Of a stretch of 45,791 nt of DNA, positions 32,048 through 36,293 are shown piece by piece (the stretch's first letter is position 1; each line of letters begins with the position of its first letter). Position numbers and translations under genes: made by a program. The stretch is from contig JAUHXR010000031.1 of NCBI GenBank assembly GCA_030426845.1, positions 1 through 45,791 of the forward strand. The letters run 5' to 3'. The notes beneath the pieces were generated by a model. The model had not been told where the DNA came from. It saw nothing but the letters and a program-made list of their open reading frames with translations, and did not search any database. This DNA comes from Polyangia bacterium. Lineage in GTDB: Bacteria; Myxococcota_A; Polyangia; Polyangiales; Sandaracinaceae.

Positions 32048-33367
32048 TCAGTCGTCGCGGAGCTTGCGGTAGAGCGTGCTCTTGTCGATGCCGAGGCGCG
32101 CGGCGGTGCGCTCGACGCTCTCGTCCGTCCCGTCGAGCGCGTGACGGAGCACCCGGCGCTCGAACGCGCGCACCGCGTCGCGGAGCGGCAGCTCGAGCAG
32201 GTCGTCGACGTCGAGGCGCACCGACGACGAGGCGCGCCGACGCTCGGGGGCGAGCTCGCCGTGGACGAGGTAGCGGTAGACGTGGTTGTGCAGCTCGCGG
32301 ACGTTGCCGGGCCAGGTGCGCGACGCGAGCTGGGCCGCGACGTCCTGGGGGACGTGATCGCGCGTGATCCCGTCGGGGTCCGCGGCGAGGATCCGGTCCA
32401 CGAAGACGTCGACGAGCAGCGGGATGTCCTCGGGGCGCTCGCGGAGCGGGGGCAGGACGATCTCGTCGCCCGCGAGGCGGTAGTAGAGGTCCTCGCGGAA
32501 GCGCCCGTGGTTGATCTCCTCGAGCAGATCGCGGTGGGTCGCCGCTACGATCTTTGCGTCGAACGGATGCTCGGTCGACGCGCCCACCGGCTGCACGCGG
32601 CGCTCCTGGAGCGCGCGCAGGAGCTTCGACTGGAGCGCGATCGGGATCTCCGCGACCTCGTCGAGGAACACCGTGCCGCCGTCGGCGAGGAGGAACGGGC
32701 TGCGCTTGGTCTTGGTCGCGCCGGTGAACGCGCCGACCTCGTGGCCGAAGAGCTGCGACTCGATCAGGGTCGGGGTGAGGCCGGCGCAATTGACGACGCA
32801 GAACGGGGCCACCGCGCGCGGACCGGCCTCGTGGAGCGCCCGGGCGGCGAGCTCCTTGCCCGTCCCGGTCTCGCCCCGCAGCAGCACGGGCAGGTCGCGC
32901 GAGCGGGCGCTGCTCTTGAGCCGCTCGAAGGCACGCCGCATGGCGGGCGCGCGGCCGAACATCCCGGCGAAGCGCGGGTCGGGGCTGGTGGGGACGGGAC
33001 CCCGATCGCGCGGCTCGATCCGGAGGACGCTCGAGCCGAGCCTCACCTCGGCCGGGCCCTCCAGCGCGACCGCCTCGAAGCGCGCGGGCCCGAAGCGAGA
33101 GCCGTTCAGCGTGCGGAGGTCCTCGACGTGCACGCAGGCGCTCCGCGGCGTCAGCCGGAGGTGGAAGCGGCTCACCGCGGGGTCGTCGAGCACGACGTCG
33201 TTGCCCGGCGCGCTGCCGATCGTCACGGGCCGCGCGTCGGCCGACGTATACTCGTCCGGGCGGCCGTCGCCCCTCAGGACGCGCACGACGACCTCGTGCA
33301 CCTCGAGCGGCTGATCCTCGAGTCGATGGGTGGATTCCACGGGCGCGACCCTCGCGAGCACACCCAT
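32048..33367 (-). CDS. FHA-domain sigma-54-dependent transcriptional activator
   Basis: A 439-residue enhancer-binding protein. The FHA domain (about 25-105) has [12 protein letters not shown] (66-69) and L-N-G-S-R-F, so the Ser, His and Asn of the phosphothreonine pocket are present, but the usual Arg after the first Gly is Ser52. The AAA+ domain (about 130-365) has Walker A G-E-T-G-T-G-K (165-171), the sigma-54 contact loop G-A-F-T-G-A (212-217, intact), L-D-E-V-A-E and a clear R-finger region. A Fis-type helix-turn-helix ends the protein ([13 protein letters not shown]). ATG 33367 has a G-run ribosome binding site and overlaps the ATG of the divergent kinase. FHA activators in myxobacteria answer to Ser/Thr kinases, and this neighbour is the obvious candidate. 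Confidence 0.94.
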
Positions 33368-35693
33368 GTCGCACGCCCCCCGACAGCACGGCAACCGCAA
33401 CCTCGCCCCCGGCCACCGGGTCGCGGGGCGCTACGAGGTGCGCGGACCGCTCGGCCAGGGCGCATCAGCGAGCGTCTACTCCGCGCGCGACGCGCTCACC
33501 GGGCTCGAGGTGGCCCTCAAGTGGATCCCGCTCGAGGGGGTGTCGCGCGCGCGCGTCCGCCTCGAGATCGCCGCCCTCCGACGCGTGCAGCGCCCCGAGC
33601 TCACCCCCGGCGTCGTGCGGCTGCTCGACGACGGCGAGGCGCGCGAGGGCGACGCGCTCTGGCTCGCGATGGAGCGGGTGCGCGGCCGACCGTTCCCCGG
33701 CGCGGCGACTCCCTGCGACTGGGCGACCTTGTGGCCCGCGCTCTCGTCGCTCCTCGTAGCGCTCGGGCGCGTGCACGCGGAGGGCGTCTGGCACCGCGAC
33801 CTCAAGCCGTCGAACGTGCTCGTGAACGACCTCGGTCAGTCGGTCCTGATCGACTTCGGCGTCGCGTCGGTCGGGGCGCGGCTCGAGGCGGGAACGACCG
33901 AGGCGTGGCGCGTGCACGGGACGGCGGCCTACCTCGCGCCGGAGCGCCGCCGCGGCGACGGCGACGCGCGCTCGGATCTGTACGCGGTCGGGGTGATGGC
34001 GATGGCCGCGCTCGGCGCCCGGCCGGGGATGGACGCCGCGCTGCCGCGCGTCCCGACCGGCGCCGCGGAGACGCTCCGGCGCATGATCCACCGGAGCCCC
34101 GCGCGCCGGCCCGTGACCGCGGAGGCGGCGCTCGAAGGCCTACGTGACCGCCCGCGATTCGAGAACAGCCCTCGTCGGTCTACGACGACCGCGCCGCTCC
34201 TCGAATGGCCGCGGGGTCACGGACCTGCCCGGCGGGAGGGGCCGCTCCAGGCCCTGCGCGAGCGCGGCGCGCGCTGGACGCCCGACGCGCTCGCCGCGCG
34301 GATCCACGGCCCCGAGCGCCTGCTTCACCTCCCCAGCGACGCGGCGGCCTACGGGGTGCGAGCGACGGGCGGCGAGCCGGCTCGGATGGCCGACCTGTTC
34401 GAGCGCCTGGTCCACGCCCGCGACGCGACGATCGACGGATCGCGCCTGCGGCTGAGCCGGGCGACCCTCGATCGCCTGCTCGACGCGAGCCCGCGGCGGC
34501 GCCCTCAGACGCCGACCGCGTGGCTGCGGCGCGCGCGGCGGTGGCTCGCGGCCGGGCGGCTCGCGCTGGCGGAGGGCCCGCTGGTCTCGGCCCTGCGCGC
34601 AGGGATCGCCGATGGCGACGACGGGCTCGCGCTCGCCGCGGCGCGGCTGTGGGTGCGCGGCGCCCTCGCATCGCGCGACCGCGGCTACGTCGCGCGGCTG
34701 CTCTACGAGCTGAGCCGGGCGCCGGCGGGCTCGCCGGCGGCCGACCGGATCGCGCCGCTCGCCCGCGCGGTCGACACGATCGGCCAGTGGACGCCCGACG
34801 CGCTCGAGCGCGCCCGCGCGCTGCCGCCGTCGCCCCACCGCGGGACGGAGCAGCTCCGCTGGAGCGTGCGGATGTTCGTAGCGCGCAAGGTGTCGATCGC
34901 CGCGCTACGGGACGAGGTAGCCGCGGCGCGGCGCGCGCATCCGCGAGCCCGGCACCCGAGCTGGGTCGCCTGCTTCGCGATGGGGGAGGGGCGGCTCGCC
35001 TACGTCGAGGAGCGCTACGCGGACGCGGCCGCGCACTACCAGCGGTCGGCGGTGCACGCGGGCTGGACGACCGATCGGCTCGGCGCGTCCCTCAACGCGG
35101 CGTCGGCCTGGATGGAGGGCTTCGCGCTCGAGCGCGCCATCGCGCTGGCGGACGCCGTGCGCGCCGAGGCCCGGGACGCGCGCCTCGCCTACTACGAGGG
35201 CAAGGCCGAGTGGATCCTCAGGACCGCGCGCGACCGGGCCGGCCACGCGCTCACCCCGGACCACGCGCTGCTCGAGGCGGCGCAGTCGATCGGCGCCCCC
35301 GATCTCGCGCTGCTGGTCGCGCTGACGGAGGCGACCCTCGCGTTCCGCGCGGGCGATCGGGAGGCCCTCACCGGCTTCGCGGCCGCGGCGCGCCGGGCGG
35401 CCGGGGTCGACAACGAGCCGCTGTGCCTCGCGACGATCGAGGCGCTCGAGGTCGCGCTCGGCCTCCGACCGCCCGACCCGGCCGCGCGCCGCCTCGCCGA
35501 CCGCCTCGCGGCCCGGGGCGTCCCGCGTCTCGCGCTCGAGGTCGCCGCCCTGGTCGAGGATCCCGCCCACCTCGACGACGCGCGCCGCGCCTGGCTCCGC
35601 GGCCTGATGGCGCACGTCCCCGCGCACCTCCACCACGTAAGCCTCGGGGTGCTGAGCGTGGACGAGTGCCGGGCGCGGCTTGGCTTGACCTGA
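33366..35693 (+). CDS. Ser/Thr protein kinase with long helical C-terminal region
   Basis: A 775-residue soluble protein. The kinase domain (about 22-285) is intact: G-Q-G-A-S-A-S-V (30-37), Lys52 in [12 protein letters not shown] from 143, D-F-G at 163-165, and Y-L-A-P-E. From about 345 to the end are Ala/Arg-rich helical pairs that look like degenerate TPRs ([11 protein letters not shown], then A-Y-Y-E-G-K-A-E-W). There is no membrane span. ATG 33366 shares three of its bases with the ATG of the divergent FHA activator on the other strand; GTG 33330 is an in-frame alternative that would lengthen the overlap. Its stop codon lies inside a 14-bp tandem repeat that precedes a sigma-54 promoter. 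A role as activator kinase for the FHA protein is inferred. Confidence 0.9.
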
Positions 35694-35718
35694 TCCGTCG
35701 CAGCTGATCCGTCGCAGC
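35691..35718. repeat. Perfect 14-bp tandem repeat, candidate upstream activating site
   Basis: TGATCCGTCGCAGC occurs twice back to back (35691-35704, 35705-35718). The first copy begins with the kinase stop codon, and the second runs into a 10-bp perfect palindrome, GCAGCGCTGC (35713-35722). The repeat lies about 70-100 bases upstream of the sigma-54 promoter at 35788, the usual distance for enhancer sites of sigma-54 activators. Confidence 0.6.
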
Positions 35719-35787
35719 GCTGCCACGGTCGTCGCGAGGACGCGCCGGCTCCGGTCGCGCCGCGCGGACCGGAGCCCGCCCGACCGC

Positions 35788-35804
35788 CTGGCACGGGGAC
35801 TGCT
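35788..35804 (+). promoter_or_regulatory. Sigma-54 (-24/-12) promoter
   Basis: CTGGCACG (35788-35795), four bases, then CTGCT (35800-35804). The -24 part is a complete match to YTGGCACG; the -12 part differs from TTGCW at one base. The GG (35790-35791) and GC (35802-35803) doublets are separated by exactly ten bases, as sigma-54 requires. Transcription would start near 35815, giving a leader of about 125 bases before ATG 35940. The rest of 35694-35939 holds no gene I can support. Confidence 0.72.
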
Positions 35805-35939
35805 GTTGTCAGAGGGCAGCAGCGACGAGCCGCCCCACGCCCCGGTCGAGAGCGCCGGTGTGGGAGACTCGCGCCCGCTCGACCCGGGGCGCGCGCGACG
35901 CGCGGCTCGTCGCGTCGAGATCGATCAGGAGGAGTGATC

Positions 35940-36293
35940 ATGGGAGCACGAGGACTGCTTGACGCGCACGAGGGCGAGGTCGATCCGGGCGTCATCCGGA
36001 TCTACGACCAGGACAACGGAGGAGCCCTGGTCGGCTACGCCTGGAAGACCGGCAGCTCGGCGATCATCTACTGCCTTCACACGAGCTTCGAGTGCGACGT
36101 CGACCTGCGGGCCAACGACAACGCGTCGCTCCTGTTCAAGCACAACAAGACCAGCGATCCGCTTCGCGCGAGCGCCCACGGCGGGGGCGTGCCGAAGGCG
36201 AGCGACGTCCACGCGGACTGGCAGTCGAACAGCAACAAGCCCCTGACGTTCGAGTGGACCTGGAGCCTCGGCTCCACATACGTGCCGCAGTAG
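35940..36293 (+). CDS. Unrecognised 117-residue protein behind a sigma-54 promoter
   Basis: The ribosome binding site, AGGAGGAG five bases before ATG 35940, is the best in the window, and the base composition is visibly less GC-rich than its neighbours, with Asn, Lys, Ser and Tyr well represented. There is no signal peptide, membrane span or known motif. The sequence alternates short hydrophobic strands with polar turns (V-I-R-I-Y, A-I-I-Y-C-L, L-L-F-K, F-E-W-T-W) and has two cysteines (45 and 52), so a compact beta-sandwich is likely. It is the first gene after the sigma-54 promoter and 48 bases ahead of the TPR protein. High expression is inferred from the ribosome binding site. I cannot assign a function; a structural, lectin-like or toxin-like small protein are all open. 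Confidence 0.72.
   Translation: MGARGLLDAHEGEVDPGVIRIYDQDNGGALVGYAWKTGSSAIIYCLHTSFECDVDLRANDNASLLFKHNKTSDPLRASAHGGGVPKASDVHADWQSNSNKPLTFEWTWSLGSTYVPQ

Follow-up and report, generated by a model that had tools for sequence, protein, structure and literature searches.

Gene organization around a candidate sigma-54 promoter

The window analysed here is the whole 45,791-nt stretch of contig JAUHXR010000031.1 from a Polyangia bacterium (Sandaracinaceae), in which divergent genes for an FHA-domain activator and a Ser/Thr protein kinase are followed by intergenic DNA carrying putative regulatory elements and by a gene for a 117-aa protein (Table 1).

Table 1. Positions of genes and sequence elements at the locus (window coordinates; dyad centres relative to the predicted +1).
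Feature	Position	Strand	Remarks
Activator gene, FHA + sigma-54 AAA+ + Fis-type HTH	32048..33340	-	Likely cognate activator
Ser/Thr protein kinase gene	33366..35693	+	Pkinase PF00069, long C-terminal region; divergent from activator gene
Tandem 14-bp duplication, CTGATCCGTCGCAG x2	35690..35717	+	Spans kinase stop codon; adds extra GTCGCA half-site
Putative activator-site dyad 1, GTCGCA-GCGC-TGCCAC	35711..35726	+	Centre -96.5; equivalents in L208 at -97.5 and, second copy, -96.5
Putative activator-site dyad 2, GTCGCG-AGGA-CGCGCC	35731..35746	+	Centre -76.5; equivalents in L208 at -76.5 and, second copy, -75.5
Perfect 10-bp inverted repeat, GGCTCCGGTC-N10-GACCGGAGCC	35747..35776		Between dyads and promoter
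-24 element, CTGGCACG	35788..35795	+	GG = 35790-35791; read directly
-12 element, CTGCT	35800..35804	+	GC = 35802-35803; read directly
Predicted 125-nt 5' leader	35815..35939	+	Noncoding in all frames
Shine-Dalgarno site, AGGAGGAG	35927-35934	+	Precedes 117-aa gene
Predicted target gene, 117 aa, in no known family	35940..36293	+	All-beta low-confidence model

The 17-mer at 35788-35804 differs from YTGGCACGRNNNTTGCW at one position, a C in place of the first T of TTGCW; the spacer between its two elements is GGGA, and the GG and GC doublets lie 10 nt apart (GG-N10-GC), in the YTGGCACG/TTGCW context of sigma-54 promoters. A preliminary description of this DNA had reported a -24 element matching in all eight positions, an exactly correct GG-to-GC spacing and a single -12 mismatch, all of which were borne out when the sequence was read against this pattern. 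With the C of the GC doublet set at -12, the predicted +1 falls, as an approximation, at 35815. The genome also encodes rpoN, recognized as a 510-aa frame with the activator-interacting domain of sigma-54 (E 4e-18; the only domain searched for). No sigma-70-like promoter was found, which also favours transcription of the 117-aa gene from a sigma-54 promoter.

The activator gene product has the features of sigma-54 enhancer-binding proteins, namely a Sigma54_activat AAA+ domain (PF00158, E 2e-59), a Walker A motif, a GAFTGA loop and an HTH (PF02954, HTH_8), together with an FHA domain (PF00498); GAFTGA and GETGTGKE were read in the sequence. The earlier statement that the only such activator lies 2.4 kb away, beyond the kinase gene, holds for the entire contig, where the sole sigma-54 activator match is at 32051-33367 (minus strand) and the gene is 2448 nt from the promoter site. 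Whether this neighbour is relevant is a separate matter, to which distance contributes nothing: candidate sites 2–3 kb from activator genes numbered 3, compared to 3.6 expected, and closeness was accordingly rejected as evidence. Its relevance is instead supported because another genome carries the whole set of promoter, two dyads, activator, kinase and small gene, as described below. Within the kinase gene, a palindromic repeat of ~80 bp (GTGACCGCCCGCGATTCGAG...CTCGAATGGCCGCGGGGTCAC, 34140-34223) lies in frame; relatives occur in at least five other places in the same genome, and the orthologous kinase described below is without part of this stretch. In-frame palindromic elements are known from Rickettsia, which the repeat recalls.

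Occurrence of the site relative to chance

Matches to the promoter pattern were evaluated both by letters and by position. The bare string TGGCACGNNNNYTGCW is not enriched, since it occurs 16 times in the whole genome versus 15 for the reversed pattern. In the window, three matches with at most two mismatches to TGGCACGNNNNTTGCW were obtained, compared to 3.7 in shuffles, and 35788-35804 is the sole match with one mismatch. We also scanned 1.37 Mb of the same genome, comprising the window and stretches chosen to be rich in activator loci, using an approximate sigma-54 weight matrix drawn from general knowledge of published compilations. Gene calls came from a simple codon model and are likewise approximate; sites were termed promoter-positioned if intergenic and no more than 300 nt upstream of a start codon. 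Eleven sites scored at least as high as 35788-35804, with 10 of the 11 promoter-positioned. The reversed matrix gave five sites at that score, none promoter-positioned, and nine wrong gaps (0–3 and 5–9) gave 0–3 promoter-positioned sites each (mean 0.6). When the threshold was lowered to 12 bits, 43 sites were obtained versus about 3 in controls. The low counts in the spacing and reversed-matrix controls correspond to a false-discovery rate of ~5% for such a score at promoter position, prior to any conservation evidence. Position, not letters alone, sets 35788-35804 apart from chance.

Conservation in an orthologous locus

A search with the C-terminal region of the kinase, covering 183 genomes of the order, revealed one clear ortholog (50% identity, E 1e-114) in the 13.5-Mb genome G480; all other matches fell well short of it (E values of 5e-39 or worse). 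At this locus, L208, activator and kinase are divergent exactly as in the window. The L208 FHA activator is 53.8% identical to its window counterpart over 422 residues and carries GAFTDA rather than GAFTGA; the recognition-helix region RLGID[KR]STLYR is common to both. The noncoding DNA after the kinase is alignable between the two loci, and the L208 site, CCGGCACG-ACCC-GTGCT, starts 97 nt after the kinase stop, compared to a gap of 95 nt in the window. Specifically, GGCACG (L208 10817-10822) and TGCT are conserved, and all four spacer bases differ (GGGA versus ACCC). The L208 promoter has two mismatches (CGGCACG, GTGCT) and a score of 11.2; judging from wrong-gap rates at related loci, the chance of such a score at most two bases from the corresponding position is about 3e-4. 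A second, diverged copy, CCGGCACG-GCCC-GTGCT, follows the remnant of a duplicated kinase 3' end at a distance of 96 nt. This duplication, which takes in the kinase 3' end and promoter region, lies on the other side of the activator (L208 3163-5340), and downstream of it is a gene whose product, from its sequence, looks like a lipoprotein of lectin-repeat/trypsin-like type. L208 is the only close orthologous locus in our data. A more distant divergent pair in G325 (L171; activator 40%, kinase 36%) has no comparable site after the kinase.

Upstream of the promoters, both loci carry a tandem pair of dyads of the form GTCGCR-N4-YGCSAC, separated by 4 or 5 bases. Measured against GTCGCG-N4-CGCGAC, window dyads 1 and 2 are imperfect (9/12 and 11/12 positions) and owe their credibility to the match with L208. 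The 9.4-Mb genome of the window holds a single match to a relaxed tandem dyad pattern, at the 35788-35804 promoter, and G480 has matches only at its pair of equivalent promoters; among other members of the order, the pattern does not exceed its reversed control in frequency. The centres are 20–21 bp apart, about two helical turns, and lie around the upstream distances at which sigma-54 activators usually bind, consistent with putative activator-binding sites near -97 and -77. We know of no described activator with the motif GTCGCR-N4-YGCSAC. A 20-bp dyad, CCGTCGCAGC.GCTGCCACGG, was chosen first and was replaced by the 6-N4-6 reading upon comparison with L208. The inverted repeat between dyads and promoter has a 10-bp loop and no T-run after it, and no counterpart is evident in the L208 alignment. 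Overall, 35788-35804 is very probably a real sigma-54 promoter, and sequence context, spacing controls and conservation in the orthologous locus lend strong support to the proposal that a functional one precedes the 117-aa gene.

The leader and the 117-aa gene

Positions 35694-35939 are noncoding in all six frames, and the 117-aa frame scores as coding, with coding-type codons. The predicted leader is atypically long, given that ~40 of 49 candidate sites in the genome lie within 80 nt of a start codon. It is foldable, although not clearly beyond shuffles (z only -1.64), and was not retained as a riboswitch or attenuator; a short TTG-initiated ORF (35806-35937) was rejected because it scores noncoding.

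The preliminary description had called the downstream gene unknown. This stands insofar as the 117-aa protein has no match in Pfam, NCBIfam or PDB sequences, but the gene does have relatives beside the orthologous activator. Scans of genome contigs gave no relatives, and a weak match in G184 (E 0.009, 48 residues) was taken as chance. A single-sequence AlphaFold model is all-beta (pLDDT 55), and a Foldseek search with it returned Ig folds at non-significant E values above 0.1. The resemblance emerged at the N-terminus, where MGARGLLDAHEGEVDPG is similar to MIARGLFDELHIGEIDPG, encoded by a tandem pair of small genes next to the activator in L208, a pairwise match that is modest by sequence score alone. 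A profile of these three proteins finds members only in G480 and the genome of the window (G000) among the 183 genomes, exactly the two with a close kinase ortholog; as the profile was built from its own members, its informative part is the absence elsewhere. The L208 small genes sit on the other side of the activator, and both have a weaker TGG-N8-TTGCT site 96 nt before a Shine-Dalgarno-preceded ATG. The small gene may therefore be a sigma-54 target in both genomes, through different promoter copies.

Related kinases (loci L171, L172, L173, L175, L176, L179, L209-L215, L217 and L218) usually adjoin a gene for a small beta-type protein with a motif like [QE][IV]D.G......G..VG, which in some cases has a trypsin- or subtilisin-like protease next to it or fused with it; these protein labels come from reading the sequences. 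This adjacency suggests a kinase/small-protein partnership, to which the statistical link of the 117-aa protein is weak: scored against a model of the wider small-beta-protein family, it ranked 4th of 1181 proteins from its own genome, with 3.8 bits, which is suggestive only of membership.

Proposed circuit and alternatives

Our preferred account, which we consider highly likely, is that occupation of both dyads by the FHA activator turns on sigma-54 transcription of the 117-aa gene, with the kinase as the probable input. RNA polymerase with sigma-54 (RpoN, encoded elsewhere in the genome) would bind the -24/-12 elements; the activator would bind the tandem dyads and open the promoter using ATP; and the transcript, starting near 35815, would run through 125 nt of leader, equipped with a good Shine-Dalgarno site, into the 117-aa gene. 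FHA domains bind phosphothreonine, and it is this property, along with gene order, that points to the kinase, which would phosphorylate either a partner or the activator itself, to be read by the FHA domain. Several observations count against this circuit: there is one clear orthologous locus, where the promoter has two mismatches and apparently precedes a different, leaderless ORF; the window leader is long; the orthologous activator has GAFTDA; and read-through from the kinase gene may occur.

A rival reading is that the promoter serves a different product, be it a small RNA or a short ORF that escaped recognition, the 117-aa gene being a passenger or co-transcribed with the same-strand kinase gene upstream. 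In L208, an ATG lies 15 nt past the -12 element of the post-kinase promoter and opens a 68-codon ORF, and this promoter seems for that reason to drive a different leaderless ORF. However, the 35788-35804 promoter has no ATG or GTG at leaderless distance, the open frame at 35806-35937 scores noncoding, and a strong Shine-Dalgarno site and a coding 117-aa ORF come directly after, making a different product unlikely. It is also quite unlikely that the promoter is real and driven by another activator, with the neighbour a bystander. Although the genome has about 83 activator-like matches and sites are not enriched 2–3 kb from activator genes, a distant genome keeps dyads and promoter together with the orthologous activator and kinase, the genome of the window has no second tandem dyad pair, and the two activators share their recognition-helix region. 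A chance match in G+C-rich intergenic DNA, with the 117-aa gene expressed otherwise, would fit the unenriched bare string and the atypical leader, but is very improbable given the low false-discovery rate at promoter position and the same-place conservation with matching upstream dyads in L208.

Leaderless sigma-54 promoters in the order

Among 49 candidate sigma-54 promoters of the genome (G000, loci L071-L170), 13 are followed by a start codon at precisely 12 or 13 nt from the -12 element, versus about 0.8 expected, and many of these sites precede genes for exported or lipoprotein-like proteins. The distance implies leaderless sigma-54 mRNAs. Across 43 sampled members of the order, TGGCACN5YTGCW-N12-13-ATG occurs 195 times versus 11 reversed, and the same motif with N26-27 before ATG 26 times versus 25 reversed (tables summed by hand). 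Leaderless genes seem common in general in this organism: across the start codons of 642 of its genes, TANNNT shows a strong peak 12–15 nt upstream (96 versus about 9 expected), so that leaderless genes with sigma-70-type -10 elements appear to be common. Overall, it is likely that a sizeable share of sigma-54 promoters in the order have the start codon on the transcription start or only a few nucleotides from it and so feed leaderless mRNAs, mostly of exported or lipoprotein-like genes. The 35788-35804 promoter falls outside this class, in which the start codon is 12–15 nt past the -12 element: its start codon is 135 nt downstream and has a Shine-Dalgarno site, so that it would be a Shine-Dalgarno-led exception under a dedicated FHA-activator/kinase pair. 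In the portions available of PMC3616915 and PMC5243855, leaderless mRNAs and sigma-54 motifs are reported side by side, with no leaderless sigma-54 class in those portions, and the word "leaderless" is absent from a 2025 survey of sigma-54 regulons (PMC12316311). No report of a leaderless sigma-54 regulon was found in the literature searched, which lay mostly outside subscription papers.

Significance and comparison with known systems

Myxobacteria possess dozens of sigma-54 activators, most without a known binding site or target. Here, one FHA activator is given a candidate motif (tandem GTCGCR-N4-YGCSAC), a promoter, a target gene and a candidate input kinase from sequence alone; a whole small control circuit becomes readable in this way because its parts reappear in a distant relative with their spacings preserved. 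The leaderless side finding may matter more than the single promoter, in that sigma-54 promoters leading straight into ATG suggest an unexpected link between sigma-54 and leaderless translation.

Systems of the NtrC, NifA and PspF type combine -24/-12 sigma-54 promoters with upstream activator sites. The present locus resembles these in its GG-N10-GC core, its tandem dyads at about -100 and -75, and an activator that joins a GAFTGA-bearing AAA+ domain to a C-terminal Fis-type HTH, but differs in the sensor, where an FHA domain takes the place of a receiver, GAF or PAS domain, and in the dyad sequence. At -12 the Klebsiella nifH promoter carries CTGC in place of TTGC, a naturally occurring variant with strong dependence on its activator; the window promoter shares this CTGC, although genes and activator differ. 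Myxobacterial FHA-domain sigma-54 activators combine FHA, AAA+ and HTH domains in large genomes rich in Ser/Thr kinases. The activator described here is like them by domain layout, as opposed to residue by residue, and stands out in having one particular kinase, promoter and small gene as partners.
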